Source of the DNA: Tetraselmis striata
Taxonomy: Eukaryota > Chlorophyta > Chlorodendrophyceae > Chlorodendrales > Chlorodendraceae
NCBI GenBank assembly: GCA_006384855.1
Contig: VCJN01000945.1
Span: 265,954 to 329,953, forward strand
Direction of reading: 5' to 3'
DNA length: 64,000 nt
The notes beneath the pieces are model-generated. The model was not told the origin of the DNA. It saw nothing but the letters and a program-made list of their open reading frames with translations, and did not search any database. The position numbers and the translations under genes are program-made. Below, one piece after another: positions 1,738 to 64,000 of the stretch. How positions within the stretch are numbered: position 1 is the stretch's first letter; every line of letters begins with the position of its first letter.

Positions 1738-1770
<33 letters not shown>

Positions 1771-2704: not shown

Positions 2705-2735
<31 letters not shown>

Positions 2736-17874: not shown

Positions 17875-17970
17875 ATTGTCTTCTACGACTGGTACATTTT
17901 CGTTTATCTTCGACTACAAAAATTCAAATTTCTTCTGCGTTCTGTAGTGTGTTTGATCCCGGCACTCACC

Positions 17971-20215: not shown

Positions 20216-20364
20216 TAGGTCCCGTTCTAATGGCATTTCTATACCGTGCTGGTGGTGCCCGTTCCTGTGTTTGTTCCTGATTGAATATAATTCCATGTAT
20301 AATTTGACTCACATATGTCCGTGTACGGGCCCCGCCAGACCGGCCACTGTTCTTTCATCTGTTG

Positions 20365-21054
20365 GATCTTTCGGTCCCAGCCGACCCCGTACATTTTGAT
20401 GCAAATCTACGCTGTCTAGCTGCGAAAACTGTAGGGTTTCCTTGGGAGGAACGACCTAGGAAACCCTGGTTTTCGCAGCGCCGTCAGGGTTAAGTGACGA
20501 CCCTGCCGGCCCGGTACGCCAGTACCGGCCGGCGCCGGTCCGGCGGCGCCCTTTAGCCGAGTATAAAGGGCGGCCGCGGACCGGGGGCGCCTTCAGTTGT
20601 TGGAAGGCACCTGACTATATTGTCTCCCACCCACCCGCCCGGAGACAATTAGTTGCTTGTGTGGTACGTTTCCGGATGCTGCTCAATTTAGATTAGGGTT
20701 AGTGTGGTTAGTTGTGAAAGCACCTGAGGTGGGGAGGGAATATCATTTTGATATACGTCATCCCACAGGGGTGTTGCGTGTCCGATAAGCCCAAGTGCTG
20801 TAGCAATTAGTCAGGCCCTCCAAGCATGTTAGCCGTGATGAGAGGCCGAGAGCAGCATAGCGGAATGTACTGTCCTGATGAGCCACGTGATCGCTGGTGG
20901 CATGTAATTTACAGACACCGGCGGGGGCTCGGGACGCGCGGCGCCTTTCCGGACACCATCCGGTCTGGCGGCCCCGTACCAGTCGTGGATCTTTCGGTCC
21001 CAGCCGACCCCGTACATTTTGATGCAAAATCTACGCTGTCTAGCTGCGAAAACT
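20365..21054 (+). repeat. B1-A2 junction and B2 end of the YR element
   Basis: B1 (20365-20427, GATCTTTCGGTCCCAGCCGA...) abuts A2. B2 (20998-21052) repeats B1 and ends CTGCGAAAACT. Between A2 and B2 lies about 375 bp that has a counterpart in the minus-strand copy at 47313-47640. Confidence 0.85.
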
Positions 21055-36893: not shown

Positions 36894-37083
36894 CAGTCTA
36901 TTTCAGTATGCGCACATTGGTCGCCGTGTCAGGAGGATGGTTCATGTACAACCTGTACATGGAGTAGCGGGAAAGTATGGCCGTAGCCGCGAGCGCCATT
37001 GCCGTAAACAACTTGAACTGGTCGACCATAGCTTCCCGCAGCTTCGGTTTTCCTAGTGGGTCCTTCTCGATGCACACTTCCAC
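36894..37083 (-). other. Possible terminal exon of a small membrane protein
   Basis: The minus frame has a helix with a hydrophobic centre (FKLFTAMALAATAIL) and ends TNVRILK and stop at 36896. A candidate acceptor (CACTAG) lies at about 37053-37058. Directly upstream sits the TIR element at 37083-37565, which may have separated this exon from the rest of its gene. Family unknown. Confidence 0.35.
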
Positions 37084-37565
37084 ACACCGGTTCGCGTAGG
37101 TACTCGTTTCTTAAGACCGTAAACGGGTCTCAAATCCGAGATGTGTAGCTGGCAACGCTTTTTGGCTACGTGGCACGCGCTACGTGCGTAATAATAGCAC
37201 GTGACCGCTCGCGCTCCTCCCCCATCATCCCGCCGCCAGCCCCAACCCTGCCCATGACACACAAAACGAGGCACCTGAATGCCACCATATGCCTACCTCA
37301 GCGCGTTGCTACCGCGGTATGCGCGTGATGGTGCCGGCCGGTGTGTTCGATTGGCATCGGTGGGGTGGGAGGGATGGGTTGGCGAGACGGGTTGTCACGT
37401 GGGCTCTGAGTTTTCATCAAATGACGTTATATTTGACTGCATCAACCGGATACTAATCACTATTCGCACTCGTTTCGGTAGTTGCATCTCAGGATTGTGA
37501 CCCCGCTATACACAGCTTAAACCCCGGGAGGATTTCATTTAGCGAGTACCCGGGGAACCGGTGTG
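37083..37565 (+). mobile_element. Non-autonomous TIR element, family 2 copy 1
   Basis: The element is 483 bp with inverted ends CACACCGGTTC...GGTACTCG. A second copy in opposite orientation lies at 52503-52981 and is similar over its whole length, including CGTGGCACGCGCTACGTGCG and AAATGACGTTATATTTGACT. There is no coding capacity. The target duplication is unclear. Confidence 0.8.
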
Positions 37566-44206: not shown

Positions 44207-44318
44207 TGTAAAAACTGTCTCGTAACCCGTTGCGAGCAAGGTCACCCCAGGTTGTTCAAGACCACACCCGGCTCGCCACCCGAGTGTGATATTCTCGTCC
44301 GTACGTCCGTGCGTTACT

Positions 44319-45194
44319 ATGTCAGATGGAGAAGAACCCGTCGCTGAGCCGACGCTGCAGTCGCTGAACGCAGATATGAGGGCCCAGTCTTCATTACTGC
44401 GAGAGCTGGCTACAGCTGTGGCACAATTGACGGTTCGTGATCGCGTTGTTGATGGAGAAGGGGCACATGGCTCCGGCTCAGGGCAACGCTTCGCGAGACA
44501 GCCGACAGGCAGCGGGGGAGCCGCAGAGCGCCCCGACTTGCTAGAGCTAGCCCAGAGCGGCCGTGTCGGAGCAAAATCCGTGAGTGCCGAGGATGATTAC
44601 CTCGCGGTGCCAGAGCTACTGCAGAGAGCAGAGTCTGGTTACGAGGCCGTTCGACCGGTCAGCCGAGTGCCTGGACTTTTCCCTTTGAGCACCGACCTAA
44701 CGAACGAGTACCTCAAGCAGGATGACCGGCGTCTGCCGGCCCAGGAGGAGTACTTGTGGATGTCGTGTTTCGGGGCCCACATGGCCGCCCTTTTCGTGGC
44801 GCTCGACGAGCTACTGCCCTACGTCCCTTCCAGCAACCAGGACTTCACCCCCTACCTCGCGAGAGCCCGGAACCACGCCGAGGCCATCGACAAGGCGTTT
44901 CGGTTTCGTTTGGCCTTCCTACGGAAGCTCAATGAGATCAAGCGTGTGCACGGTGACCAAGGTGTTCTGGATGTGCTGCGAGCTCAGCATTTTCAGCCTG
45001 CTTCGGAGCATCTGGGTTCCGCGATCTTTGGAGACCTCATGCGGGACTACGAGCGTCGTGTTTTCGAGGCGACCGTTGCCAGCAGCGCCAAGGCGACCGC
45101 TACTTCTCGAGTGGCGGCTGCAGCTGCAGGTCGCGGGCGTGGGCGAGGACGTGGCGGCGGACGTGGACGTGGCCGCGAAGGTGAGCACGAGTGA
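44319..45194 (+). CDS. Gag-like protein of YR element
   Basis: The ATG at 44319 (MSDGEEPVAEP) is preferred over 44286. An N-terminal coiled-coil-like segment (LNADMRAQSSLLRELATAV) is followed by a helical core from about residue 100 to 250 (YLWMSCFGAHMAALFVALDE) and a C-terminal RGRGRGRGGGRGRG nucleic-acid-binding tail. There is no CCHC knuckle, unlike the 17971 Gag. The frame is intact. Position before the YR and directly after A1 suggests the element's structural protein; the assignment is by context and tail, not by homology I can name. Confidence 0.7.
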   Translation: MSDGEEPVAEPTLQSLNADMRAQSSLLRELATAVAQLTVRDRVVDGEGAHGSGSGQRFARQPTGSGGAAERPDLLELAQSGRVGAKSVSAEDDYLAVPELLQRAESGYEAVRPVSRVPGLFPLSTDLTNEYLKQDDRRLPAQEEYLWMSCFGAHMAALFVALDELLPYVPSSNQDFTPYLARARNHAEAIDKAFRFRLAFLRKLNEIKRVHGDQGVLDVLRAQHFQPASEHLGSAIFGDLMRDYERRVFEATVASSAKATATSRVAAAAAGRGRGRGRGGGRGRGREGEHE

Positions 45195-45230
45195 CGGTGT
45201 GGGGCGCCGTCCGTCGGAGCTGCAGGAGCC

Positions 45231-46856
45231 TTGCGAGGCCACCTTTCGGTGACCGCCGCAAGGCGCACCCTTGCAGCTCAACGACGGGATGAGCGCCCCG
45301 TGTCAGGACCTGACCCCCCCACCTTACAGACTTCATTTAGACCTTCCTCGGTGCGGCGCTTCTTACAGCTACAGCCGAGTGCGGCTCAACCATCCGCACA
45401 CCTGCACATGGCGGCTCAACCATCCGCTTTTCTTACAACCCCATCTCTGCGTTCGTCGGTTGTTACACTACGAGTTACAACCGGTTCGCAACGACCAAGT
45501 TTCGCGCGTGTACATTACGCACGGGACAGGCGCTATGAGCGCGCAGGGCGCGCGGGGCGGCCCTCCTACCTGAACCTAGCCCCGCAAACCCGTACTGGAG
45601 CTACTGCAAACCCGTCCAGCAACTACCGGCCAACCGCCGGGAACCTAACCGCTGCTGCCGAGTACTTTGCGAACAGTAGCCGTCCCGGTGGCACTCTGTC
45701 AGTAAAACGACGCACTTACGTAATCGACGAGCCCGCAGCTATCGCTCCGTGGGCTGCGTCACTGCGATCCCGACTACAGGACGCGTTCGGCTCAGACGAG
45801 CTAGGCCAGCGGACGCTCGACCTGCTCTCCAGCTCCCTCAGCGCTCAGACCCTCAAGAGCTACGCCGGCAGGTTGGCTCAGTTCGCTGAGTTCTGCCACG
45901 ACTCCGAGAACATCAGCCCGCTAGAGGCGACTACTGCTACTGTTGTTCGGTACGTTGCCTGGATCGGAGAGCGAGGGCATATCGCAGCTAAGTCGCTGCA
46001 GCCCTATCTGTCTGCTATCAACACCTTCTTCGAGCTGCACAACCTCGTCCCGATCGCCAAGGACAGCCTACACCTCACTTCGGCAAGACGTGGGTTAATG
46101 TTACGTCCGCGTCGACTGGACGCTGCCCCCTTGCGTGTCCCTCTGCCTGCGGATGTAGCTTACCGCTTCGTCTCAAAGGCCGAGCTAATTGTGTCTGCTC
46201 CTTACCCAGAGTCCCACCTCGACTACCGAGCCCTCTTGGCCTCGGTTGTCAACTTCCTGTTCTTTGCCAGGGGCCTTACTGGCGTCTCCTGTCGAGTGCA
46301 AGATGTGCATGTCGACACCTACAACATCACCTTGCAGATCTACCGCGAGAAGGGTCGCGCCGGCCGGCGGGGACCTGACGACCTGCGCGTACTTCTCCTT
46401 CCAGTGTCCGAGCACCCTCGAGTGGCACGTCTCTTGCGCTACTTCATCGACAACGTCCAGTCTGTCCCACTGGTTACTGTTGGCTTGGCTACCTCCAACT
46501 TCTGGGCTGTCAATGTGGCTGAGCAGTCGAAACCTTGGACTGCTACTACGATGTCAGACTGGTTGTCTACAGCAGTCAACCTAGTCAACGCTGCCCCCCC
46601 TGCTGGCACTTCCTGGACTTCACACAGTCTACGCAAGGGCGCAGCCTCTGCAGCAAACGCCATTGGAGCGCCACTGTCCCACATCCGCTACCAGGGCGGT
46701 TGGGCCACTAACTCTGATGTCGTTCTGGACTACATCGACCCCAACGTTCTTCCTTCTCCTGGCGCGTGGTTCTTCTTTGGACACATCGCCCCTCTCCGCC
46801 ACTTCCAAGTCCAACAGGACTCCGCAGCGGTGGCCTTCCCAGTGCCTCCTTCATGA
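45231..46856 (+). CDS. Tyrosine recombinase (integrase)
   Basis: A 541-codon frame whose true start is probably one of the Met codons after the first 50 residues. A SAM-like N-domain (SLSAQTLKSYAGRLAQFAEF) is followed by the catalytic core: Arg355 in TGVSCRVQDV, His465-x-x-Arg468 in SHSLRKGAASAA, Trp491 in YQGGW, and nucleophile Tyr501 in LDYIDP. That is the full R-H-R-W-Y set, so the enzyme looks active. It would cut and rejoin a circular copy at the split repeats. Family: YR of DIRS/PAT/Ngaro/Crypton type. A decayed homologue lies at 32280-32950 (-). Confidence 0.9.
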   Translation: MRGHLSVTAARRTLAAQRRDERPVSGPDPPTLQTSFRPSSVRRFLQLQPSAAQPSAHLHMAAQPSAFLTTPSLRSSVVTLRVTTGSQRPSFARVHYARDRRYERAGRAGRPSYLNLAPQTRTGATANPSSNYRPTAGNLTAAAEYFANSSRPGGTLSVKRRTYVIDEPAAIAPWAASLRSRLQDAFGSDELGQRTLDLLSSSLSAQTLKSYAGRLAQFAEFCHDSENISPLEATTATVVRYVAWIGERGHIAAKSLQPYLSAINTFFELHNLVPIAKDSLHLTSARRGLMLRPRRLDAAPLRVPLPADVAYRFVSKAELIVSAPYPESHLDYRALLASVVNFLFFARGLTGVSCRVQDVHVDTYNITLQIYREKGRAGRRGPDDLRVLLLPVSEHPRVARLLRYFIDNVQSVPLVTVGLATSNFWAVNVAEQSKPWTATTMSDWLSTAVNLVNAAPPAGTSWTSHSLRKGAASAANAIGAPLSHIRYQGGWATNSDVVLDYIDPNVLPSPGAWFFFGHIAPLRHFQVQQDSAAVAFPVPPS

Positions 46857-47122: not shown

Positions 47123-48489
47123 CCCCCTGACTCCGTTTTCCCTCCACGCTTTTCGCTAAACCTTCCTGCCAATTTCGGCTCTTGACCGTGTAAAACAGCC
47201 TGCGCGACATTCAATACAGTATTATTTATAGGTATTCAGGGTTTTATTCGCAGCTATAGACAGCGTAGATTTTGCATCAAAATGTACGCGGGGTCGGCTG
47301 GGACCAAAAGATCCACGACTGGTACGGGGCCGCCAGGCCGGATGGTGTCCGGAAAGGCGCCGCGCGTCCCGAGCCCCCGCCGGTAGTGTTGTAAATTACA
47401 TGCCACCAGCGATCACGTGGCTCATCGGGACAGTACATTCCGCTATGCTGCTCTCGGCCTCTCATCACGGCTAAGATGCTGGGAAAGTCTGACTAATTGC
47501 TGCCGCACCTGGGCTTATCGGACACGCAACACCCCTGTGGGATGACGTATATCAAATGATATTCACTCCCAACCTCAGGTGCTTTCGCAACTAACCAGAC
47601 TATCCCTAATCTAAATCGAGCAGCATCCGGAAACGTACCACACAAGCGAATAATTGTCTCCGGGCGGGTGGGTGGGAGACAATATAGTCGGGTGCCTTCC
47701 AACAACTGAAGGTGCCCCCGGTCCGCGGCCGCCCTTTATACTCGGATAAAGGGCGCCGCCGGACCGGCGCCGGCCGGTCCTGGCGTACCGGGCCGGCAGG
47801 GTCGTCACTTAACCCTGACGGCGCTGCGAAAACCAGGGTTTCCTGGGTCGTTCCTCCCAAGGAAACCCTACAGTTTTCGCAGCTAGACAACGTAGATTTT
47901 GCATCAAAATGTACGGGGTCGGCTGGGACCAAAAGATCCAACAGATGAAAGAACAGTGGCCGGTCTGGCGGGGCCCGTACGCGGACATATGTGAGCCAAA
48001 CTATACAGGGAATTATACTCAATCAGGAACAAACACCGGAACATGGCATCACCAGCACGGTATAAAATTGCCACTAGAACGGGACCTACGTTGCGTCCCG
48101 GGAGGTATCCCAGTCAGTGTCGGATGGTGAACTGTCACTGTCACTATTGTCCAGTTCGTCCTCTTCTGCAAGTGACAGGATCGCACGCGACGCGGACAGA
48201 CCGTGCTCCTCATCCAGCCCCATATAGCGGAGCTGAGCAGAGGTTGACTTCCAGCCACCATGCTGGCCCCATGTAGTGAGCGGGATGTCTGCGTTAGCGG
48301 CGGCGGAAGCACCTACTATGTGCCTTACTGACAGAGCCAGAGATGAGCAGCCAGTCATCCAGATAGCAGAGCATCCTGAGGCCCCTACTGCGCCAGTGTC
48401 GCACCAGAACTCCCATGACTTTAGAAAAGCAGCGGGGGGCATCAGACAGCTCAAAGCATAGAACTCGCCAAGTGTAGAATTTTCCTCTC

Positions 48490-48957
48490 CATTCAGACCC
48501 ACTGAAAGGAGCAGCTGAGTCATGGAGGCGGACATGGTAATAGCCCTGAGTCAGATCTATGCTGGTCGCCGGGAATCACCAGGTCTGACAACTTAGATAA
48601 CGACTCCACCCTGAAGAGAGTGTAAACCAAGTGTTTGTTGACATGACGCTGATCGCAGATCAGCCTGAGTCCACCATGGGGTTTGGGGACCACACCTAAA
48701 GGGTTCAGCACCACAAGACGCATAGGTTCTTCTTTGATATGGCCCAGCGGCAACAGCAAAGCGATCTGCCCATCAATAAAATCGGGGTGCTGCAGCGCGG
48801 AAGGGTGGTTCGGCAGATGACTAGGTGGTGCGGGACCATCAACCCAGTTCATACGGTAGCCATGCCTGACCCAATCTCTGACCTGACTATCTCCGACTGA
48901 TTCAGTGAAGCTGTCCCAAAATTGCCAGCCTTTACAGATAACACCGGCCGATTCCAC
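48490..48957 (-). pseudogene. Remnant of DIRS-type reverse transcriptase
   Basis: The minus frame reads DGQIALLLPLGHIKEEPMRL, then VVPKPHGGLRLICDQRHVNK, typical of the N-terminal part of DIRS-group RT (the PKP..G.R...D.R.VN block). The YLDDW block further on (about 48330-48370) is out of frame in this copy. RNase H is missing. Confidence 0.7.
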
Positions 48958-49472
48958 AGGAGAATTGACGTCGGCTCATGAGGAAGCTCAAAATTAGCTG
49001 ACGTTAAAACCGTCACAAAATGCCAACGCCACAGACAGCATCATAGTGGTCAGCAAGCAGCCTGGATGACTGCTGCATGAATCAAACAGTGAGTTTGAAC
49101 TCGAAATCGTCTGAAACTGAAAATAACAATATTTTCGAATTAAATATCGCTCCGACACAACGGGAGATATGAATCGTCACACAGGGTGTGCCGCTCTTTA
49201 CACGAATGCATCGCCGACCAACTTATGGAAAGTTGCAGAGGCAACTGCCCGGGGCAGCACATAGTCGCAGGGGACATCATATGTATTACATACGAGGTAT
49301 CTCTTGGAGATACGCCACCTAACATGTGACCCTCCCTGAGGAGATCAGAGCTGCTATGACACGAGCATGAGCTCAGCTCCCGGAGGAGGGCTAACAGCTG
49401 CCCGGAGGCCTAACTGCAGCTACAGGAAACACCATCACTGGCCAGGCCAGGAGGATTGTTGACTCCACGGCT

Positions 49473-50523
49473 TCAGCGACGTGCACTTGGGCAGTCCCTA
49501 CTGAAGTGTCCCTTCCTCTGGCAGCGGTAGCAGGTGATGTCCGCAGCAATCGACCGACCAGAAGAAGACTTCTCCTCGCGACGGCCCCCCTCCCTCCGGT
49601 TGTCGCTCCCACGGCGAAAAGACTCGGGCTCGCGAGAAGGGGAAGAAGGCTTCGCGCGCGAAGAAGAAAAGGAAGGTTTCTTGGCCTTGACCTTCTCAAT
49701 CGCCTTCTTCAACTCCTTGTAGTCCGCTGAGCCCTTCTCGCCGAGAGGGTCCACTGCATCGAACTCCTTGGCGACTTCCGCGCCGTACTCGTGCTCCACA
49801 TGTAGCTTCTTGCCACGCTTGTTAATCCGAAGAGCCAGAGTGGTACACGATGCCAGCGCCGCAGTAATCGTCTTGAACAGCTCCGCAGACGAAGCTGGCG
49901 ATGAAGCAGGAAGATCGGTGCCGTCCTCCACCAAGTCACGCAGAGGCTCCTCCGCCGGTGCCAAAAGGTCATAGATCTGGAAGACGTCGTCTAGGTCGCG
50001 TTGAAGAATACGAGCATCAGCGGTATGGCGGCGGTGAACCATACCTTCATTATCCAGCCAGCCATCCTCGGGTGCGTAGATGGTGCGAGACGGTGCTTCC
50101 ACAGTCGGAGGTTGAGCTTGTCTCTTGCCCTTGCGGTCGTAGTCGGCGTCCCCCTCCGCAACGCGTTTCGAAGCGGTAGCCGAAGTGGACGGACCGCTCG
50201 ACAACGCGACTGCCTGCCTAAGCTCAGAAACCTCTCGTTCGATACGGAGTAGAGCAGCAGAGGTATCAGCTACTGCCTGTCTAGCGGCGACGAGAGAGAG
50301 AGAGATTCAGCTACCCCGTCTGCAGGTAGAGAGTCGCCACCTAGGACAGTGAGATGACTTTCGCGCGTAACGAGTTGCTCACGAAGAGCTTTACGGGAGT
50401 CTAGTAACTCGTTCCAAACGAGTTCAAACTTCTCTACTGCTAAAACAGAGACGAGAAAGCATGGCGACAGCACCACGAGCGAGACAAAGAGCTACGCCCA
50501 AGACGTACTCGCGGAGCGAGCCA
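49473..50523 (-). pseudogene. Frame-broken Gag with CCHC knuckle
   Basis: Homologue of the 17971-19020 gag. The C-terminal 243 codons are open (49473-50204) and end with the same zinc knuckle. The N-terminal part lies in other frames (50270-50476 and 50424-50642), separated by an indel near 50290, a GA repeat. Confidence 0.8.
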
Positions 50524-50827
50524 TGGTGAGTGCCGGGATCAAACACACTACAAAACGCAGAAGAAATTTGAATTTTTGTAGTCGAAGATAAACGAAAATG
50601 TACCAGTCGTAGAAGACAATATAGTCGGGTGCCTTCCAACAACTGAAGGTGCCCCCGGTCCGCGGCCGCCCTTTATACTCGGATAAAGGACGCCGCCGGA
50701 CCGGCGCCGGCAGGGTCGTCACTTAACCCTGACGGCGCTGCGAAAACCAGGGTTTCCTAGGTCGTTCCTCCCAAGGAAACCCTACAGTTTTTATGTATGT
50801 TTTTGCAGGCACGGTGGAGACTAGGGT

Positions 50828-50935: not shown

Positions 50936-51186
50936 TACCCAAAGTGCCATGAATCTCACTGGATAACGTTTGGATGGCGCCCGCCAATGATAATAAGCCG
51001 TATATGGCGACGGTTCCGGCGGTCGGAGCGCTGCGGATAGCACCGTACTCGCCCGTACCATAACATGTCGCCGCATCGGGGCATACACCAGTAGACCACA
51101 CACACCAGCCGAACCTATCCTCACTTCACGCTCACCCAGCCCGTGTTGGCAAGCCCAACTTGGACAAGCAACAGCCCGTCGGCAAG

Positions 51187-52447
51187 ATGGTTGCAACCCG
51201 CAGTCAGGCCAGCAGAAAAGCACAGGTAGCGACTGCCCACGCCAATCAGTCGGCGGAACAGCGGGAGGACGCATATTACCTAACTGACGAGGAGGAGGGT
51301 GAGGCGTATGTGGCCATCATGGCCGATTCCCAGCCAGCCCCCTCACCCCAGCCAGGACCCCGCGGCCTTGCATGACAGCGGAACCTGCAAGGCCACTGAT
51401 CCCACAGCGGTGACCCACCCGAGCAACATCCTTTACGGTGTAACCGGCCGGTCACGCTGCATGCCCAAGGCAGCCGAGGAGGCGCCGACGGGCGCGAGCA
51501 TTCCCACACCATCGGGGCTGCCGCCGTGCGCGCGGCCCGGGACGCCCGCGTGTTTTGCCGCGTTCCGTGACCACCGACCCCGGGTCCCGCATGGAGCAAC
51601 CCGATTGGATGGCAACGCGTGAGCATTGGCGCACCGTCCGCATGGCTTTGAACCCGCATTTGGCCCGCTCAACGCCCCGCAATCGTTTGGGCCGGCTGTC
51701 GAGCAGCCGCAACCCATGGACCGGGACACTATTGACGCGCGGCAGCAACAATTGTGTCAGCATTGGCGCACAGCGTTGCAACATCTGAGTGTGTCCCAAG
51801 TGAGTATGACGCTCTTGTTTTCGGGGGACACATCGGCGGCCGCTGGCGCCGGTCGCTGGCGCGAGGCGCTGGTGGAGGTGCTGAACGGCAGCTTGGATGA
51901 GTATCACGTGGCATGCCGCGCGGCATTGGATAATGCACTCAAGCGGTTTTTAGGCACTGCCCAGCTCAGCGCGTGGCAGACTTCCGCTATCAGGATTTGC
52001 ACGCTATGTTCCGGCATGGTGTTGGGAGCGTGTTGGGCGTCAATTTGGAGGAGCGGCGGCCCTCGCCCATCGTGACGGCGCCGCAGCCATACAGCATGAC
52101 CACCGATACGGCGCATGCAGCAGGCGGGCACCATGCGCCATGCAGGACAGCTAGACACATGTGAGCGCGCGGATCCGCCGACGCTGCCGCCTGCTGTAGG
52201 GGACAGTTCCGTAAATGGGCAGTCTGTAATTTCGGGCCGCCGCTGTTTGGCCGACACGGACCCCGAATTGCAACAGCTTAGGCAATCGCAGTCTGAGTAT
52301 TTCAATAAGCTGGCCGCGGAGGGTTTTCGCCGACCCGGCATGGCCCTTGTTGACATGCGTTATCCAACGAAGCGTCGATTTTTCGGCGGTGAGCTTTATT
52401 GCCGTACGGGTACCCGTATAGTGCGGATCGGGCCTATAGGTGCATGA
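51187..52447 (+). pseudogene. Gag-like region of gypsy element
   Basis: Three partly overlapping frames: 51187-51375 (MVATRSQASRKAQVATAHAN, acidic end), 51626-52030 (RWREALVEVLNGSLDEYHVA, then FLGTAQLSAWQTSA) and 52115-52447 (ELQQLRQSQSEYFNKLAAEG). They are helical, without a zinc knuckle. Position before the protease supports Gag. Frames are broken at about 51376 and 52030-52115. Confidence 0.5.
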
Positions 52448-52502
52448 CTAAAGCGCTCATCTACTGGCATGTACTACTAAGTACTATAATACACCCGCCC
52501 GC

Positions 52503-52981
52503 CACACCGGTTCCCCGGGTACTCGCAAAATGAAATCCTCCCGGGGTTTAAGCTGTGTATAGCGGGGTCACAATCCTGAGATGCAACTACCGAAACGAGC
52601 GCGAATTGTGATTAGTATCCGGTTGATACAGTCAAATATAACGTCATTTGATGAAAACTCAGAGCCCACGTAACCACCCGTCTCGCCAACCCATCCCGCC
52701 CCACCGATGCCAATCGAACACACCGTCCGGAACCATCACGCGCATACCGCGGTAGCAGCGCGCTAACGTAGGCATATGGTGGCGTTCAGGTGCCTCGTCT
52801 TGTGTGTCGCGGGCAGGTATGGGGCTGGCGGCGGGATGATGAGGGAGGAGCGCGAGCGGTCACGTGCTATTATTACGCACGTAGCGCGTGCCACGTTGCC
52901 AAAAAGAGTTGCCAGCTATACATCTCGGATTTGAGACCCGTTTTCGGTCTTCAGAAACGAGTACCTACGCGAACCGGTGTG
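52503..52981 (-). mobile_element. Non-autonomous TIR element, family 2 copy 2
   Basis: Inverted copy of 37083-37565, with ends CACACCGGTTCCCC and GCGAACCGGTGTG. It is flanked by CCCGCCCGC on the left and GCCCGCCCGC on the right, which may be a target duplication or simply a local repeat. It separates the gag and protease parts of the gypsy element, so it inserted later. A repeated CTACTAAGTACTATAAT word brackets it at 52476 and 53132. Confidence 0.8.
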
Positions 52982-53353
52982 GCCCGCCCGCCCGCCCGCC
53001 CCCAGTTCTTAATTGCACAGCCGTCCGATTACGATCCCACGGTTGGGAGGTATTGGTACTCGCTACTCGCTGCTGGTAATGGAAAAAATGGTACTCGCTA
53101 GTCGTCACAACCGCTTATCTACTGACATATTCTACTAAGTACTATAATCCGGTGGAGCTGCCGCTCGAAACGCTGCGCTAGATGACTTCTATGCAAGCCA
53201 CACGCGAGTTCCTAGTCGCTACTCCAAAGCGCTGGCAATGCAATTCATGGAACTGTAGGCCAGTGATATAGAACCCGTTGCTTTACAATTTTCTGAAAAA
53301 TCGACGCATCGCTGATTCAACTGTCAAGTTACTTCATATACACCACTATCCAT

Positions 53354-53690
53354 GTGGCGGGCGTGTCGTGCCGGACTAGCTTGCTTGACAGTGGCGCGGA
53401 CATGGTCGGCTTGAACCACCGGCTGTATGACCGCATTGTGGCCCATCATGGGCGAGAGTGCCGCACATGGCTTATTTCCATGTCATGCATCCATCCCGGG
53501 GCGTCGTTGGAAACCCTTATCCTGGAGCCGTTGCCCATACGCCTCAACCATCAGACCTCGTGGGAGGTCAGCGTTGTCTGGCCAAAGTTCGCAGTGTTGG
53601 ACAACCCGGACCTGCCATATCTCCTTGTAGACTTGTCCATGATGCACGCGCTGCAGATTGTGCTGCACCCGTCGCGCATGGAGGCATATC
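53354..53690 (+). pseudogene. Retroviral-type aspartic protease
   Basis: The frame contains SLLDSGADMVGL, the flap-fold protease active-site block (D-S-G in place of D-T-G), followed by about 90 residues of plausible strand sequence ending LPYLLVDLSMMHAL, which fits the second psi-loop (LLG/LVD-type end). It is open through 53944 but becomes low quality after about 53750, where a poly-G tract lies. Confidence 0.65.
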
Positions 53691-54129
53691 ATCTGATCTG
53701 TCCTGGCGCAGCCGCGCACGGAGAGCGAGCTATTGTACCCCTGCAAGATGCCGGGCAGACCATGCACACGCGAGCCAAGGGCCGTGTCGTTGCGTTGTAC
53801 CCATCCCCGCAGCCGACGGCTGGTTTTGGGGGGGGGGGGGGGGGGGGAGTGACGCGGCCACCCAAGCAAACCAGGCAGGCCAGCCGAAGGCTACATGCGA
53901 TAGCACCGCACCCTTTTTTTCGCTTCCCGTTGAGGTCGAGTTGAGCAAATGCTGCATGATGCGGCAGCCGGTTGAGAGCCAAGGTGCGTCATGCGTGGGC
54001 ACTGGCCGCATGCCAACCTACGATGAGCAACGGCGGGCGGTGCTAGACAGCGGTCGCGAGCTGCCACGAACGGCCTGGTCCAAGCTGACTTGGACGCTGT
54101 GGGCGCCCTGCCGCACACAGACCCGGATA

Positions 54130-55240
54130 AGTGTTTTGTCCTGCCGTTAGATACGGCAAGGCAGGAGCACTGCATGTGCTCAGTGGATATAGCGGCATGG
54201 GGACAGTAATGTGTAAAGCTGTCCAGGATGGTATGCACATTGGCAACTTGCAGCTCATTGAGGTTAACCCCGCCCGATCGTCGAGAGGACCTCCGCAAGC
54301 AGTTGCAGTGGGTGCATGAGCTGTGGCCCGACCGCATGCCGGAGCGCGTTGCGCGGCACGCGTTTGACCTCGGTGAGGCAATAGGGCATGACATCACACA
54401 TCTAACCGCTGAGCTGGTGTTGAACCACATGGGGCATGTAGACGCGGTGACAATGGAGCCACCGTTTTCGGGTCTGTCGCCGCTAGGTATGCAATTGGGG
54501 GTGTAGGGCGCCCGCACAGGCACGGTCGTGCCACTGCTAGCTGCCCTAAATGACCTGCAATACTTGATGGCCAAGCGGCGCGGGTGTGTTGATTGAGCAA
54601 TCGCTCCGGCGCAGTTCGGCTATCTATTTGATCGAGAACGTCAAAAAGCCACCGGACGGACGACGTAGCCCCAAGGTGGATCAAGCATTAGATTTTTTGA
54701 ACCGCGTGCTAGGCCACCCCAACATGCACAAGCCTCATTTGTGTGGTGACGTCACGCTGAGAGAGGCGTGCTGGTGGACCAACATGTTCACCAGCGACTG
54801 TTACGATAGGGTGGAGTGGGAGTTCCACAGAGCCCCACCTATATATGCTGCTGGCTGAGATAGTGGCAGAAGAGTCGACAGGCAGACTGCAACCACAGAT
54901 TCCCACTAGGGCCAGACCCTATACCATGCTAGGTGGTCTCAATGAGGACGGGCAGACCATGAGGGTGCTGCCCAAGTTCCATGCTCGCGTGGACACTGTA
55001 ACACAGATCCACGATCATGATGGACAGCCCGGTGCCGGCATGTTGCATGTCGTCGGCTCTCGGCCGCCAAAGTACGTGCCCACACCTGCACGGATCGGGA
55101 GCGGTGCCATAGCGCACCGCCGGGGTTCTACACGAGAGCTTATTTGGGTCGAACTCAGAGCCGACAAGTGCATGCCATCGGCAACGTGTGCGCAAGCACA
55201 TCGGTGTCGGTCATGCTGAGGATCGCGGTAGCATGGGCTC
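54130..55240 (+). pseudogene. Cytosine-C5 DNA methyltransferase-like domain inside gypsy pol
   Basis: C5-methyltransferase motifs appear in order. Motif I: HVLSGYSGMGT (54170-54205), AdoMet loop. Motif II: LIEVNP (54253-54270), acidic ribose binder. Motif IV: AVTMEPPFSGLSPLG (54445-54486), where the catalytic PPC reads PPF; codon 54465-54467 is TTT, one change from TGT. Motif VI: IYLIENV (54622-54642). Then an R-x5-W-T-N block (REACWWTNMF, 54763-54792). Motif IX/X: SRQVHAIGNVCASTS (55159-55203), open back to APPGFYTRAYLG. Motifs lie in different frames, with stops at 54504 and 54593, so this copy is dead. Spacing between IV, VI and the W-N block recalls DNMT3-like enzymes. Retrotransposon-borne cytosine methyltransferases are known from a few lineages. 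Confidence 0.8.
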
Positions 55241-55326
55241 ATCAACGTCGCTGGGAGAGCTACATTGCCACCCTCGGTTTGACGTAGCCTGCCGAGCGCG
55301 CCGCCGTTCATGTCGCTGAGCACCAT

Positions 55327-55620
55327 TTGCAGCATGCAATGCGGCAGAGGGTCGAGGCCGAGTTGGACCTGCACGGGTCAGCCATGCATGAGCTGGCCCT
55401 GCTTTTCCAGAAAAAGCGGCGGGGTAAGACCCGGCAGCTGATGGGTGTCAAACTGATGAGTATAGCCAGGCAGCGGAGGCTGCGTCAGGCTGCGACTCGA
55501 CGCCGTAAGGCTGAACGCAAAGCCGCCAAGGCTCGTAAGAAGGCTGCGCGGCAGCAGCGTGGGCTGAGGTGGGCACAGCGGGACCCCAAGGTGACCCAGC
55601 GGGCGCCGTCAAGGCACGAC
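55327..55620 (+). pseudogene. Lys/Arg-rich linker between methyltransferase and RT
   Basis: A strongly basic stretch (RRLRQAATRRRKAERKAAKA, then RKKAARQQRG) in an open frame, placed between the methyltransferase-like and RT regions. It may be a nucleic-acid-binding or nuclear-localisation segment. Confidence 0.5.
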
Positions 55621-55739: not shown

Positions 55740-57011
55740 ACGTTTGGAATGAGCTCACCGATCAGAACCCTTTGTTTCCAAAGCAATACCACCTAGCTAA
55801 ACGTGAGCAAGATTTTGCTGAGGAATAAGTCAAGGAGTTGGAAAAGCGCGGCTGGTCAAGGAGATCAAGAGCCCATGGGCGGCGCCGGTCGTGGTCGCGC
55901 CCAAGAAGGATGAGTCGGGAGCATGAGATGACCTGCGGTATGCCATAGACTACCGCGGTCTAAATGCCAAGACAGTTAGAGATCAATACCCCGCACATGT
56001 GGCGGAGGAGATCCTAGCTAAGATGGATGATGCAGCAATTTTCAGTTGCTGTGATGCTTTAAAAGCTTTCCACCAGTGTGCTGTCGATGCGTCCGTGCAA
56101 CCGTGCATGGCGTTTCACGCCGGCAACCGCCTTATGACATGGCAGAAAAACAGCGTGGCATGGTGGCAGGGAGTTGTTGATGATGCGCTGGTGGGCATAC
56201 CCTATGCCGCAGCCTTCGCCGATGACATCATGATATGGAGTGCCGACAATGAGGCCGAGCATATCCGCCGGGTTGGTGAGGTGCTCGAGGCCTTAAAGGC
56301 AAATGGTGTGCAGCTCAGTCCCAAGAAATGCCATTTGGGCATGAGGCAGGTTGAGTTTTTAGCGCATGTAGTCAGCAAGGATGGTGTGGAGCCCATGTGG
56401 TCTAAGGTAGGGACTGTCAACAGCCTCCCTGAACCCAAAAACTGTCAGAATTGCGCAGTTTTCTGGGCATGGCAACTTATTCCTGCCGGTTTTTGCCACA
56501 CTACTCCCTCGTCAAAAAGCCGTTGACCGATCTAACCAAGAAGGACGTACCCTACACATGGGGGGCGGTCCATGTTCATGCATTTAATGACATCAAGCAG
56601 TTGCTGACCAGTGCGCCCGTGTTGCGCAACCCGGATTGGAGTAAGCCGTTCACCCTACACATTGATTGGAGTAAAATTGGGGTGGGCGTGTGCTTGTCGC
56701 AGACGGACGATGACGGTGTGGAATATGCCATCGCGTTTCTGTCCCGCATGAACAGTAATGGTAACATCAATGGTAAGAGCAATGGCAACCCGTTATTGGC
56801 TGGGGGCGTCAAGTTTACGCTGATCTGCGACAACAAGGCTATGGAGTGGCTGCGTTCGACAGCCAGGCTGCGCAGCAAGATTGCGCGCTGGAGCCTAATC
56901 CTAGCCGAATATGAATTTGACATCAAGCACCGGCCAGGGAAGGACAACACTGTCCCTGATCTGCTGAGCCGTACGTCAGCCCCGGCCCCAAGCAACCGTC
57001 GCGGTAGCTAG
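55740..57011 (+). pseudogene. Ty3/gypsy reverse transcriptase and RNase H
   Basis: RT blocks: SPWAAPVVVAPKKDESG (with frame breaks, about 55868-55920), LRYAIDYRGLNAKTV (55933), FSCCDALKAFHQ (motif A, 56040-56076) and AAFADDIMIWS (motif C, 56208-56240). The segment between A and C is shorter than usual. The frame changes at about 56450, where SFLGMATYSCRFLPHYS begins the connection. RNase H follows: TLHIDWSKIGVGVCLSQ, FTLICDNKAMEWL, and the end block FDIKHRPGKDNTVPDLLSR. A stop at 55924-55926 and several indels make it non-functional. Confidence 0.85.
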
Positions 57012-57098
57012 GCATGTGCCTATATATCCACTCGCTATATATCTCCTATATATCCGACTGGCGGTCGTGCCGCAGTTGCGCGTGACGCAGCGGCAACT

Positions 57099-58088
57099 GT
57101 GATGGCGGGTTTCTCTGACGCCCTCCTCGAGTGGACTAGCCGAGACATTTGGTCCAGCCCGATAGCCGTGCAGTTCGCGGAGGGTGAGCTTAACCGTAAC
57201 GCACTAACGAACAAACTATGGCATGCGTTGCATCGGAAATGTCGCCGCTATCAATGCAGCAATCACAAACTGTGGCGTTTAGTGGGCAAGTATGGCAACC
57301 TCCGATTGGAGGCGCCGCCCCCGGAGGAGCGGGCTGACATTGTCATGCGCACGCATCATAAGATTGGGCATTTGTGTAGGGACCGCACCTATCACATGGT
57401 GTCGCGTCATTACTTCTGGCCGGGCATGCACGCGCAAGTGGCCGAGGTGCTGAAATATTGCCGTGAGTGCGACCGCGTGAGGGCCACATTCAGCATGAAG
57501 CACGATAGGCTAAAACCTATGCCCTTGTTTGGGCTGTTCTATAGGTTCGGGATGGATTCGGCATGCCCGTTGCGTTCGAGCAAGGAAGGACACACCCACG
57601 TGTTGGTTGTTGTTGAGCATTTCAGCAAATGGGTGGACCTAGTCCCCATTAACTCCTTGAACCCTGATGTGATAGCCAAGGCGTTCACGGAGCGGGTGTT
57701 GGCGCGGTACGGCGCACCTGTCGAGGTGGTCACTGACAACGGTCAGGAATACCATGGGCAGTTTGCGGCCCTGTTGAAGCAGCACGGCATTGATCAGGTC
57801 GAGATTCCGCTTGGACATCCGCTGTCCAATGGTATGAGTGAGCGTATCGTCAGGGTGCTGAAGGAGGCTCTTAGGAAATTTGTTATGGCTATGGGCAGCT
57901 TCCACTGGGACCAGTGGCTGCCAGTCATAGAGTTCGGCTATCGTATGTCACAGCAGAAGAGCACGGGGTTCAGCCCCTACTTTTTGCTGTACGGCCGCAC
58001 ACCGATGAGCCCCTCCCAAGTTCGATCGATGATCGACGAACCGGTAGACGTGGAGGACCTTGCAGCCATGCTGGAGTTGATATCCTAG
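57099..58088 (+). CDS. Ty3/gypsy integrase (intact frame)
   Basis: A 329-codon frame without internal stops. An N-terminal HHCC zinc finger (HHKIGHLCRDRTYHM, then CRECDR) is followed by the catalytic core with Asp153 (GMDSACP), Asp213 (VVTDNGQEY) and Glu248 (NGMSERIV), giving the D,D-35-E spacing. The GPY/F-like segment (GFSPYFLLYGRTPM) follows. It stops at 58088 (TAG); the reading continues in another frame toward the PHD finger. The core looks complete even though the upstream pol is broken. Confidence 0.85.
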   Translation: MMAGFSDALLEWTSRDIWSSPIAVQFAEGELNRNALTNKLWHALHRKCRRYQCSNHKLWRLVGKYGNLRLEAPPPEERADIVMRTHHKIGHLCRDRTYHMVSRHYFWPGMHAQVAEVLKYCRECDRVRATFSMKHDRLKPMPLFGLFYRFGMDSACPLRSSKEGHTHVLVVVEHFSKWVDLVPINSLNPDVIAKAFTERVLARYGAPVEVVTDNGQEYHGQFAALLKQHGIDQVEIPLGHPLSNGMSERIVRVLKEALRKFVMAMGSFHWDQWLPVIEFGYRMSQQKSTGFSPYFLLYGRTPMSPSQVRSMIDEPVDVEDLAAMLELIS

Positions 58089-58264: not shown

Positions 58265-58620
58265 GTGAAGACCACCCGCACCATTCTGCGCGTGGCCAAG
58301 GTGTACTCCACCGGGTGGCTCGACCTAGCGGGAGCGGGAGCAGACGCCCGCGAAATCACCGTGCAGAGTGAGCAGTGTGCTCCGTGCAATCTGTTTAACC
58401 TGATCCCTGCCCGCCGTGGCCCCGCACCTGAGGGCCATGCGTGTCAGGCGTGCGGCAGCAACAGTACGGCCGCGCCAATGGTGGTATGTAACAAGTGTGG
58501 CCAGCCGTGGCACACTTCCTACCACCCAACCGGGGTGGCCAATGTGGACCCAACGAGGAGTGGATCTGCAACACATGCCAGCCGGGACTGCCAGCTTCCA
58601 GCATGCCAGCTGCTGTCACG
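58265..58620 (+). pseudogene. PHD-finger module after integrase
   Basis: The frame contains GHACQACGSNSTAAPMVVC, then NKCGQPWHTSYHPTG, matching the first five ligands of a PHD finger (C-x2-C-x11-C-x2-C-x4-H). The last Cys pair (WICNTCQPG) is present at about 58560-58590, but one base out of frame. PHD fingers bind histone H3 tails. At the C-terminus of an integrase this would direct insertion to marked chromatin. A poly-G tract follows at 58638-58652. Confidence 0.7.
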
Positions 58621-58839
58621 ATGTTCCACAGCTACGGGGGGGGGGGGGGGGGGTAATACCATTTATGGCAGCATCCCCACTTTTTCCTTTTTCTTCGACT
58701 ACACTACGACAATTGTCATCGCGTGCGCGAGCGCCAGCGCGGAATGCGCGCGCATCGTACATCGCGCACGGCGGTACGGTGCAACTACGGGCTCCGTGTT
58801 TCCAGCACGTACGGGGCCCAAGCCACGGGTGTCGTAGCT

Positions 58840-60382
58840 CTACCGCTGCTCCATACATGAGTTCTACAAGCCATGACATGTGACGGCAAGGTGACTAGCC
58901 TGCGGATGCATCAGTGCCAGTCGGTACCTGTTTGTCCTGCAGTCACCAAGGATTGCCATGACGCCAGAGCCGGACAAGCCAAGACGACGTGACGATGATA
59001 GATGACATAGCTGGTGTTAGTACTTTATAGTATTTCAGTGATTACGCGCGCGAAGCCGTACGAGGGATAACAGCCATGTATCCCCGATGCGCGACGCGTT
59101 GCGAAGCATGTTTTGCAGTGTTGATGTTGACTTGTAGTATGTTATGACTTGGTCTAAAAAGAATCGTCACGAGGCCAGTGCGTGCGCCAGTACGCGCGCA
59201 CCGCACGGCTGAACTGGACGATATATAAGCGGGGCAGCTTATCGATCCAGTAGCCTTTTGTCTCTTGTTGACCCGCGAACTACCCTACAGCAGCTGTTGA
59301 CACTCATGACTTGGCAAGCACCCCGCTGCCCCCACCACTGTTTGTGACAATAATGGCATACTCTGTACGGGTACTGTATGATCGTAGCATCATTCATGTA
59401 CGAGTACCTGCTGCTGTATCGTATGTGTGCGCGCGTGTGTCACGCGCCACAATACGAGTACTGGTGGATGATGAATCATGAGATGAGTCCTACTGGTACC
59501 GGTACACTGTTCAGTAGAAGTTACGGGATAATACGCATGTGCGTACCCGTAGCGGGCATATATGTGTAATGCACCTGCCTCTGTAACATCAGTTGTATAC
59601 TTGTGTATAAACTGATGTGTCAACTACATGTGCGGAGGTCTCTAAGCGACGACCTCATGTTCGACACTTCAAGGCACGACTCTCCACGGTGACGCGCTTA
59701 GCAGTGCGCGTGCCGCTTGGTGGTGGCTAGCTGTGAGCTAGCCATACGCATAAATAGCGGCGGGTGGTGACAACGTTGTAACCATTGTTTCTTTCTTCTC
59801 TATTGCCTCTGTGTTTTCACGCCAGTCTTGCCTTTTGCGCGTGTGAGGGGCGAGACTGCCGCACTGGTCTCGGAGCTGTTGTTGCGCTCCTTATTCTAGC
59901 TTCCACTGCTCAACCTGCGATACCTCGACTGAGCAGTTCGACATGTCTGAGTCGATGACTTCTGCTGGCAAAAGCCGAGAGTAACTGCTCAACGAGGAAA
60001 GTTCAGTCGACATGTCGACTACTAAGGAAGGTCGCACGCTCTAGTCATATATCGCACCTAGCTGCACCAGTAGTTGCTGTACTGGACTGAACAGTAATTT
60101 AACCTATTTTGCGCCGTGGAATTCATTTTGCACCGTAGGGTTTGTTTATACCCTAGTTCCCGGGTTTACTATCAGTACTTAAGACTCACTGGTGATGTAG
60201 CTTGGGTTTGTAGACCTTGGGTGCAGTGCAGCATTCAACAGCATGAAGGCCAGCCGCGACGCATATCCAATGTTGGTTTTGGAGCATTTTGTCCAAAATG
60301 GGACAAGATGAGGCAATGAAATCAATATTTATTGTGATTATTACATCCAGCGGCTAGCTAGCCACAAGACGTTGCTGATAGT
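58840..60382. other. Spacer with promoter-like segments
   Basis: No gene is supported. Two TATA-like segments, ATATATAAGCGGGGC (about 59220) and CATAAATAGCGGC (about 59749), are each followed by pyrimidine-rich transcription-start-like sequence. They may belong to a solo LTR or a lost element. Short frames starting at 59943 (MSESMTSAGKSRE) and 60012 are too short to call. Confidence 0.35.
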
Positions 60383-63300
60383 TTATTCGTTGAGCATCCC
60401 CAACTCGAGCAAGTCCTTCTTCGTGGCTGCGTTAAACTTGACGACTCCGCCGGGTTTGCGTTGCGCTGGGGTGGTTGACATGACGTGGACGCAGTTGTTT
60501 CGTGGCTGGCTGATTTGCCACCCAGTTTGCGCATATGTCTTCACGACTTGGACGCTTTTACCGTACCACTTCTTTCTGACCATGGTGCCGTCCTCGTTGA
60601 ACACCTCTCGACTTCCCGACGCGTCGTGGATGGCCTTCGCGTACGATAGGGGGACGGCTTCAACAAGCTTCCAAGGAAGCGTCAGGCACTTCTCCCAGCT
60701 TGTGTCAACTGGCTTCTTCCCTCCTTTTGTCTGCGCGTACAACCATAGGGGCATGAGGGGTTTGCCCTTTGCATCGGCATGGAAGGGCTCGTATACGGCC
60801 ACGGTCAACGTGTCTTCGGTAGTCTCGCGCGACTTCACAAGCCCGATGACGAATCTCGACTCCCAATCACCAAGAGTTTCAGGACACTTGTCTTCCTCAT
60901 GCACCTAACGATGACCAAGACCGCGAGCTATGTTAGTCCCGAGCGAGACGCCACGCCATTTTTGTCCCAGCTGGGACAAAATAACAAGCAAGGTAGAAGA
61001 ACCAAATTGTTTTGTCCCGTAGAGGACAAAAATGACAAACAATGGGACTCACATCGGAGACGTCGATGACAACGAGGTTCGAGCCCTTTGCATCGCTGGG
61101 CGATGTGTTGTCATGAAGCCTCTCCTTGGCGCCGGCGTGAACTCCCCGGAAGGCGCTGTCATCTTGAAGCACTTGAGCACGAACCTCGGCTTCCACGCGA
61201 GCGGCTTCGGCATTGTTGAGGTCTGCGTTGGTAGCCATCGTGTGACGTGCCTCAGCAGGCGCGGTCTGCCCGTGCCCGCGCAAGAAGTCGTCAACTTCCT
61301 CTTTCCGTTGCGGCCAGAACCCGGAGAAAGCTGCCGAAGGAGCAGTTTGCATCTCATCCAAGTCGTCGAGCAGATTCTTCCAGCTCTCGCGCTCGACTGG
61401 GGAGAAGTGCCACTGGACCGCAAGGTCCGTGATGTACGACCTGACCTTCTTGAAATCATCCAAGTACCTCTGGACCTTCACCGCGTCGGGCTTCTTTTTG
61501 TCGCAGAGAGCGTACAAAAGGGGCCGGCCCGCACGAATCTCGGGCGTCCCAGTTGGCGCGCTCTTCAAGATATGCACGGGCTCAAAAAGCGGTGTGTTGG
61601 ACCACAAGGCGGTGCGCAACGAGCCGCCAGACGCGGCGGCGTCGTCACGGGTGAACTCGAATTTGTGCGGCTTACTGATGTCCTGAATGTGGTCTTGGAA
61701 ATGGGGCCTTAACCACTCAGAGAAGTCGAGGGAGAATGAGAGCTCAGCAATCTCCGGAGTGGGCGAGAATGCCTTCGCCACCAAGTCAAGAAAGGCCTCG
61801 ATTGTGTAGGCGGAGCTGCGAGATAGCGAAAGACTGATGCGGCTGAAGATCTGGTCAGCCCGTTCGTGAGTGTGCCCGACAGGCAAGAAGACCAAATGAA
61901 TGACGTCGCAGATGCCGATAGACACAAGCCAATTGCAGAGGGCCGCCACGTTCCTATTCTTGTTCTCCCTGACGGTGTTGTCCATCTGGATTCTGATGTA
62001 CGGAATCTTTCTACCACGGTGTTGAATCTCCTGCATCGCAAACCAGATTTCATCAGTCCAGGGCTACTGGACAACCACGGCGAACCTATCGGGAGGCTAA
62101 CGAGCTCACCTTCATGATCGTGATCCATATCAGAGTGCACGTCGTGGACGAATCGTGGGGGATGGTGTTGGTGTAGTAGTAGATGTCGTCCGGGCGGTAT
62201 CCGTCGTACTTCACACAGGTGAGGTGGTACTTGAGGAGCATGTCGGGCTTCACAGTCTTGGGGATGCGAACCCAGTGAGGCAGCAGGGTCTTCGCGGAGT
62301 CCATGCTATCAATTTCGAAGAAGAAGAAGTTTCCATGGCCAAGGCGCGACTGGAAGACGGCGTTGTTCAGATCCCTTCGTTCCTGGCGCACTCTCTCGAG
62401 GTGTACCTTCTGCTCAGCTCTGACCTGACGCCTCACCAGCTGTTGATGTTGACGGTGCACTTGACGTTCCTCTGGCGTCATGTCCTTTGTGCAAATCTCG
62501 CGAGCTTGGTCTCTGAGTGCTTTGCCCGCCGCGCATATGGGACAGTGGCTGAATCGCTTCACCTTCGGCGTGGTGACATCCGGGAAGTCTTCCTTCCAAG
62601 TCCGGCGGAAAGTGTCGAACGATGCGAGCTTCACTTCGCTCTCGGTAGCCAAATCTACAAAGGGGCAGGGGCATGATAGGTCGGTATACAAATAAGGTCT
62701 CAGACTGCGAGACAGAAAAGTTCGGTCTAAAGTGGGTCGAAATAATTATATCGGTAGTGGGTGAATAATCCTGTAATCAGCATGGCGAAACAATCTGTCA
62801 TCAGTGTGACGAAACGGTATGTCAGTAGTGGGACAAAACCGTCTCTCAGCAGTGGGACAAGACGTTCTCTCTGCAGGGGGACGATATCGGCTAATTATGT
62901 GGGAGAAATACTTATGTGGTCGGTGGGACGAAACGGTATGCCATGAGCGGTGCGAAACGTTCTGTCATCAGCGGGACGAAATCGGTCCGGCGTCGGTGGG
63001 ACTAAACGTTCTGGCGATAGCGGGACGAAACGGTTTGTCATCAGCGGGACGAAACGGTATGTCATCAGCGGGACGAAACGGTTTGTCATCAGTGGGACGA
63101 AACGGTATGCCATGAGCGGTGCGAAACGGTCTGTCATCAGCGGGACAAAACGATTTGTCATCAGCGGGACAAAACGGTTTGTCATCAGCGGGACGAAACG
63201 GTTTGTCATCAGCGGGACGAAACGGTTTGTCATCAGTGGGACGAAACGGTTTGTCATCAGTGGGACGAAACGGTTTGTCATCAGCGGGACAAAAACGGTA

Positions 63301-64000
63301 TGTAATTATCGGGACAAAACGGTCTGTCATCAGTGGGACAAAACGGTCTGTCATCAGTGGGACAAAACGGTTTGTCATCAGCGGGACGAAACGGTTTGTC
63401 ATGAGCGGGACGAAACGGTATGTCATCAGTGGGAAAAAATGGGCCTCACCGCGGAGAATGGCGTTGTCGTCCTCGGCCCACGACTTGTAGTAGTAGTAGA
63501 CGCAAATCTTGGTCATCCAGGGAGGTAGGTGCTTCTTGAAGGTCTCGCTGTTTCCGTCATGAAAAGGCATGATCTCGACGTGACCGAGGTCATCCGAGAA
63601 GAAGTGCTCGAGAAACATGCGCACATGCTCCCTCGGTCCGGATTGTCTGCTCTCGTATTGCTTGCGCTGCCTGATGTACGTGGGTTCGTTATCCACCACC
63701 GACCGCTGGATCACGAGACGTCTGTGTTTCGAGACCTGATGCAAGGCCTCCCACGCACGCCCACACGTGTAGATGGGGCCGCGATGATCGAAAGATCGCA
63801 AGTAGCCACCGTGATCGAACATGTAATCGAACTTGTCGGATGCCGACTCGTAGCCACCCCTGAGAACCTGAGCGAGCCGGTCAAAGGAGCGGTTCTGATT
63901 GCCCGAGTATACGGTCAACGCACGGTCCAACACGGCATCAACGAGGGCCTCTCCGCACTGTGTGTATAGCTTGTGCACGCACTTGCGCGAAACAGCATGA
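60383..64000 (-). CDS. DUF7869-type transposase-like protein, 5' end beyond the window
   Basis: Exons, minus strand: 64000-63450 (open to the edge), 62654-62110, 62063-61053 and 60904-60383, with GT-AG junctions and matching phases; at least about 740 codons are visible. Exon 2 has a CPIC Cys pair and an RNase-H-like first acidic site (FFFFEIDSMDSAKTLLPHW). Exon 3 has QMDNTVRENKNR and then PVGHTHERADQIFSRIS. This D...DNTxxENKN...GHTHxxxDxxFS pattern is what I know as the DUF7869 family, which resembles DDE/RNase-H-fold transposases and is widespread in algae and animals. A basic coiled-coil (EERQVHRQHQQLVRRQVRAE) lies between. The 62655-63449 intron is mostly a 24-bp minisatellite. Whether this is a host gene or a mobile element is unclear. 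Confidence 0.8.
60960..61031. repeat. Palindrome pair with GGGACAAAA arms
   Basis: A perfect 22-bp palindrome with arms TTTTGTCCCAG/CTGGGACAAAA at 60960-60981 and a near-palindrome TTTTGTCCCG...GGACAAAA at 61011-61030 lie in the last intron of the DUF7869-type gene. The arm resembles the minisatellite word GGGACGAAA and a similar pair at 60288-60305. Confidence 0.8.
62785..63440. repeat. 24-bp minisatellite in an intron
   Basis: Unit GGGACGAAACGGTTTGTCAT + CAGC, about 27 copies, near-perfect from 63000 to 63420 and degenerate to the left. As 24 is a multiple of 3, frames stay open on both strands (SGTKRFVI on plus, FVPLMTNR on minus), and the minus frame continues directly from the upstream exon. 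Confidence 0.95.

Follow-up and report, generated by a model that had tools for sequence, protein, structure and literature searches.

A cytosine methyltransferase domain in the pol polyprotein of Ty3/gypsy retrotransposons of the green alga Tetraselmis striata, with homologues in copia and DIRS-like elements

The marine alga Tetraselmis striata harbours a lineage of Ty3/gypsy retrotransposons with split terminal repeats, in which the pol polyprotein is ordered protease, C5-cytosine methyltransferase (DNMT), reverse transcriptase (RT), RNase H, integrase and PHD finger. As judged from alignments and profile searches, most RT places of two gypsy groups are preceded by a DNMT, a third group has it in intact form, and homologous domains are found in copia and DIRS-like elements of this genome. 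The explanation that best accounts for the whole, and that we consider probable, is that the DNMT methylates the element's own cDNA while the PHD finger tethers the integrase; both the activity and the role are what we infer.

Results

The window, by which we mean the whole 64,000-nt stretch of contig VCJN01000945.1 that was analysed, contains an element with the protease, RT, RNase H and integrase in the order of a Ty3/gypsy LTR retrotransposon (Table 1). The original prediction had placed a C5-methyltransferase segment between its protease and RT, and this was borne out via intact relatives. The intact domain of one of these, L010, was aligned to the window by tblastn over residues 4-407, in three frames and with a best E-value of 2e-102, a similarity far above chance. 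Motifs I, IV and VI were located as predicted; the stretch AIGNVCASTS, which had been called motif IX, is one that we take to be motif X. Neither six separate pieces of the window DNMT nor one 387-aa read-through of it matched PF00145, and a PDB search with the read-through gave one unrelated match only (E 0.83). However, the relatives do match: all seven domains of an alignment did so at E <= 0.5 (best 2.8e-13), and the anticipated Pfam relationship, silent in the window, is thus found in the family.

Table 1. Parts of the Ty3/gypsy copy, in window coordinates.
Feature	Position	Strand	Basis or remark
Gag-side coding region, upstream of protease	51138..52363	+	83-91% identity with L026, L027, L028
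Nested MITE-like insertion with 20-bp inverted repeats close to its ends	52364..53338	.	about 975 bp, upstream of protease
Aspartic protease (LLDSGAD)	53339..53941	+	aligns with protease part of P0001
C5-cytosine DNA methyltransferase domain, frameshifted pseudogene	54069..55284	+	tblastn with intact L010 domain; alignment
Motif I SGYSGMGT	54182..54205	+	frame translation
Motif IV PPFSGLSPLG	54459..54488	+	PPCQDLSPLG in intact relative L010
Motif VI LIENV	54628..54642	+	translation and alignment
Motif VIII region WWTNMF	54772..54789	+	translation and alignment
Motif X AIGNVCASTSVSVM	55174..55215	+	translation and alignment
Basic Lys/Arg-rich linker, DNMT to RT	55288..55600	+	translation; by eye resembles later stretch of P0001
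Reverse transcriptase	55927..56523	+	PF00078 (RVT_1) E 9.4e-13
RNase H	56433..57008	+	PF17919 (RT_RNaseH_2) E 1.4e-18
Integrase (H2C2 + rve)	57012..58085	+	PF17921 E 1e-14, PF00665 E 7e-11
PHD finger, broken, end of pol	58442..58519	+	PF00628 E 0.002, below cut-off
B1 repeat	58654..58711	+	second copy at L019 9463-9521, L027 7790-7840
Truncated A2 repeat	58712..59344	+	homology to L019, L027, L028 ends at 59344

As read from its layout and decay, the window copy is a dead member of the split-repeat Ty3/gypsy lineage of Tetraselmis. Its DNMT shows about five frame changes (by reading), several stops and PPFSG in place of PPCQD in motif IV. A Pfam scan of the protease-like ORF (53297-53941) returned no match. 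A second copy, L019, is 97% identical over 53339-55604 and has in common with the window the PPF, one stop, the frameshifts, the insertion at 52364 and an upstream junction with a DIRS-like copy. The nested insertion is bounded by inverted repeats at 52365-52384 and 53295-53314 and holds a further insert (52503-52981) that is kin to window 37083-37565; L019 has the insertion without the further insert, and the site is empty in L020, L026, L027 and L028, of which L020, L027 and L028 keep PPC. Loss of the motif IV cysteine in both the window and L019 is what might be seen if the DNMT were a passenger free of selection, a piece of a gene that a few elements had picked up and carried along, a reading that we regard as very improbable. 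Given the shared insertion and junction, the loss is better explained by duplication of one dead copy than by independent spread of a Cys-less subfamily.

Elsewhere in the window are DIRS-type remnants at 17681-21050 and 47247-50791, two inverted copies about 92-93% identical with CCHC gag ORFs, and another at 44286-46856 with a 541-aa ORF that is tyrosine recombinase-like by eye. A minus-strand ORF at 60933-62036 carries DUF7869 (E 2.5e-36) and is perhaps transposon-derived, and an imperfect tandem repeat array at 62772-63443 encodes short repeated peptides in both directions.

A search of 5.8 billion proteins yielded only two members of the family, both gene models of T. striata (P0001 and P0002); a search padded for longer proteins gave nothing at E <= 0.1, and no relative of P0001 was found in viral contigs. 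P0001, which reaches 97% identity with the assembly, comprises the protease and the N-terminal half of the DNMT, with EPPCQDLSPLG, and scores E 0.086 against PF00145 and 2.5e-4 against phrog_363 ('DNA methyltransferase'). P0002, as a model only, has the protease without the DNMT, which is either truly lost or hidden in an intron of the prediction. PDB searches gave nothing at E <= 5 for P0001 and nothing at E <= 1 for the gypsy copy L009.

The genome searched was the window's own assembly (224 Mb, 2903 contigs). PF00145 recognised 123 stretches in it, all above cut-off; by manual count, 39 lie within open frames of at least 1000 aa. The union of several search lists, with overlapping fragments dropped and 12 rows at 26-31% identity moved between lists, amounts to at least 404 merged places, fragments included: at least 165 gypsy and at least 240 others, the latter counted without regard to superfamily, one pair merging. 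Such numbers, together with a DNMT and a PHD finger in one polyprotein, as expected of a chromatin-directed writer and reader, would suit an enzyme whose target is host chromatin, at or close to integration sites or across the genome; it would then shape the methylome of the host or silence competitors instead of methylating the element's own cDNA. The discussion of PMC5890265, in the part available, raises this for Symbiodinium, and CpG in the window is not depleted, which speaks against it here; we hold it to be unlikely, though worth keeping in mind.

The gypsy copies fall into groups A (the window's), B and G3, with at least 16, 72 and 77 merged places, respectively, fragments included. 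Several group-B copies have one open frame of 2953-2970 aa, and the expectation that intact copies would retain both PPC and a single pol frame was confirmed in this group. L009, the copy scanned, encodes the protease, DNMT, RT, RNase H, integrase and PHD finger; its protease (E 0.039, a weak match), DNMT (0.015) and PHD (PF00628, 8e-5) matches are below Pfam cut-offs, and the scan matched no gag domain. Its DNMT motifs, in the only 2953-2970-aa frame read through the DNMT, are AEPPCQDVSSMG, VIENV, WWTNTF and AIGNVCAPTSVSV. In group A, L010 retains an intact DNMT frame (PF00145 E 0.0018, under the curated cut-off) and has lost RT to integrase.

Family members were also predicted to keep the segment upstream of RT, and they do. 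A DNMT lies at most 6 kb upstream in 61/70 group-B RT places, with fragment rows of one place merged and two RT rows below 65% identity excluded (C2372 and the window), and in 45 of 47 G3 places, three tandem RT stretches on C1805 sharing one DNMT; positions were judged by distance and side. The nine group-B and two G3 places with no detected DNMT come from searches that score best candidates only, and the nine are a further point for a passenger. G3 had seemed a DNMT-free sister, as PF00145 and a group-B query were blank up to 8 kb upstream of all 47 RT places. However, reading 1.9 kb of one place revealed a divergent DNMT, which when used as the query gave the count of 45; these DNMTs were first missed because only best candidates are scored.

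A plain LTR-internal-LTR structure with a short target duplication is expected of Ty3/gypsy elements. Both ends were inspected in eight group-B copies. Seven of these are instead arranged A (about 1054 bp), coding region, B (about 66 bp), A, B, and six of the eight are flanked by a 4-bp target duplication (CTTG, CAAC, CTAT, ACTC, AAGT, CACA), none being found at C2425 and C2330. The two A repeats are 99.4-100% identical in seven copies; the group-B insertions are therefore recent, and some related copies appear to have been active recently. When ten loci were aligned against themselves, the same A-coding-B-A-B order emerged for two of group A: L010, where 874 bp are repeated at 99.5% and 45 bp at 100%, and L021, where 838 bp are repeated at 97.9%. 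The eighth group-B copy (G000:C2330:17279-28819) is arranged A-A-internal-B, a layout that may come from a circular intermediate or recombination.

The DNMT extends beyond gypsy elements. Five of the PF00145 stretches were retrieved (L045-L049). L045, L046 and L048, three of three scanned, are Ty1/copia elements carrying it (RVT_2 E 2.9e-65, 3e-45 and 2.5e-36), and L049 is 92% identical to L045 in the DNMT. L047, ordered RVT_1, PCIF1_WW, DNMT, RNase_H, is by its domain order DIRS-like, and through the PCIF1_WW domain may have an adenine methyltransferase beside the C5 enzyme; its region 1501-4500 (G000:C2687) has four places at 91-100% identity. The DNMT follows the protease in gypsy elements, lies between RT and RNase H in L047, and precedes Pol_BBD, and by eye also the protease motif, in copia. 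L045-L048 match PF00145 above cut-off, while the gypsy A and B domains alone fall below, and motif I of these two groups is unorthodox. The domains of all three kinds of element are homologous; a profile built without gypsy sequences recovers the DNMTs of the three gypsy groups with E-values no higher than 8e-27. Occurrence in three gypsy groups and in copia and DIRS-like elements argues against a passenger. We hypothesise, tentatively and at somewhat less than even chance, that one DNMT module moved between gypsy, copia and DIRS-like elements within one green-algal lineage, to three sites in pol, because methylation of its own cDNA is of advantage to any retrotransposon in this host. If so, cytosine methylation would serve the retrotransposons of this genome as a common entry pass, to which the gypsy line has added a PHD reader.

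Standalone C5-methyltransferase pieces of the assembly scored 1-13.5 bits against the retrotransposon DNMT profile (L050, L051, L054); one 92-aa piece, L055, scores 26.9 bits (E 1.2e-7), so that a host gene could conceivably have been the donor. Six standalone places (G000:C1993, C776, C1647, C2337, C355 and C1455, the last being L050) have 325-aa open frames with similar PF00145 scores; L050, the one of the six read, is unlike the retrotransposon DNMTs, and these places are possibly of viral or other mobile-element origin.

Regarding class, a seven-member profile searched against solved C5-methyltransferases matched DNMT3A (4.9e-11), DNMT2 (1.4e-10) and HhaI (1.2e-7). Among PDB sequences matched by the G3 domain alone, 27/37 were DNMT3 (best E 9e-4); the gypsy-only profile placed HhaI (4e-5) ahead of DNMT3 (0.03), L045 alone favoured HaeIII and DNMT2, and L047 alone HhaI and DNMT3A alike. 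Kinship with DNMT3 is therefore possible, the link being weak for groups A and B. The closeness of DNMT2 to DNMT3 in the profile search would also be compatible with methylation of RNA, or with a domain that binds nucleic acid or has a structural role in the particle, DNA methylation not being the selected function. This is distinctly unlikely in our view, since Pro-Cys of motif IV and ENV of motif VI are invariant in the seven aligned domains; the window copy and L019 have PPF.

Selection was gauged by NG86 dN/dS of the DNMT. The deeper comparisons gave low values of 0.12-0.26: a copia pair (0.19), C663-C2193 and A-B (both 0.26), and L010 against an L020 piece (0.15) and a 73-codon window piece (0.12). 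L020 against a window piece gave 0.35. Several dS values are close to saturation, and two further comparisons had infinite dS. The young pair L010/L024, at 0.46, leans towards a passenger, but the low deeper values and conserved catalytic residues point the other way; in one copia pair dN/dS was 0.55 downstream of the DNMT and 0.19 within it.

CpG observed/expected is 0.93 in the window, 0.95 in its element and 0.97 in the L009 ORF (0.81-0.99 over ten stretches). Between copies (15 pairs), CpG change was 0.05-0.34 against 0.065-0.24 for a GpC control, and exceeded it in 14 pairs, for which the ranges were 0.17-0.34 and 0.14-0.24, a modest excess. A CpG self-mutation signature is thus weak: heavy self-methylation followed by deamination is not seen, CpG being undepleted and its change only modestly above GpC. 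This absence of strong CpG decay is a second point for an RNA or structural role.

Discussion

Retrotransposons are normally targets of cytosine methylation. We favour as an explanation that the DNMT would be cut out of the polyprotein inside the particle and, once freed, would methylate the cDNA of its element ahead of integration; the new copy might then pass as host DNA or escape a defence directed at cytosine. The PHD finger would tether the integrase to a histone mark, on the model of the chromodomains of chromoviruses. In chromodomain Ty3/gypsy elements too, a chromatin-reader domain follows the integrase; here it is a PHD finger and not a chromodomain.

Retrotransposon DNMTs were previously known from dinoflagellates and charophytes, in LINE, DIRS and gypsy elements, and the DIRS class methylates CG de novo in yeast, as given in the available sections of PMC5890265. 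The same sections report no detected yeast methylation for the LINE and Klebsormidium gypsy DNMTs, which would suit an RNA or structural role, although the authors call this inconclusive and the activity of DIRS-class relatives on DNA argues against it. The original prediction understated the case, as the same DNMT family is also in copia and DIRS-like elements here.

Compared by description only, KnitGypsy-Dnmt3 of Klebsormidium nitens resembles the Tetraselmis gypsy elements in its C5-methyltransferase inside pol, its A-coding-B-A-B layout and its purifying selection; it differs in its charophyte host and in being a DNMT3 by the authors' tree, and the sections available mention no PHD finger and no sharing with copia or DIRS (PMC5890265). 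SymbioDIRS-Dnmt3 and SymbioLINE-Dnmt of Symbiodinium are alike in that hundreds of retrotransposon DNMTs occur per genome, and L047 resembles the DIRS class; they are unlike in their dinoflagellate host and in being LINE and DIRS rather than gypsy and copia, Symbiodinium copia lacking a DNMT according to the authors in those sections (PMC5890265). DNMT3s in 'LTR Copia and DIRS' are mentioned in PMC12344493, citing the 2018 streptophyte/dinoflagellate paper, which describes gypsy, so that true copia may not be meant; Tetraselmis is absent from its main text as far as available. Excerpts of other papers report Tetraselmis DNMT5/6 genes (PMC9998398) and review accessory domains (PMC6338049). Among titles and abstract openings, in a scope that excluded subscription journals and bioRxiv, we found no report of a Tetraselmis retrotransposon methyltransferase. 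Three things look new: the chlorophyte host, the sharing of one DNMT family by three superfamilies within a genome, and the combination of a DNMT with a PHD finger in one polyprotein.

In summary, these data extend the phenomenon to chlorophytes and suggest that DNMTs move between element types. Moreover, with at least 404 DNMT places spread over three or more superfamilies, and near-identical recent copies, what a retrotransposon gains from methylating DNA becomes testable in a marine alga.
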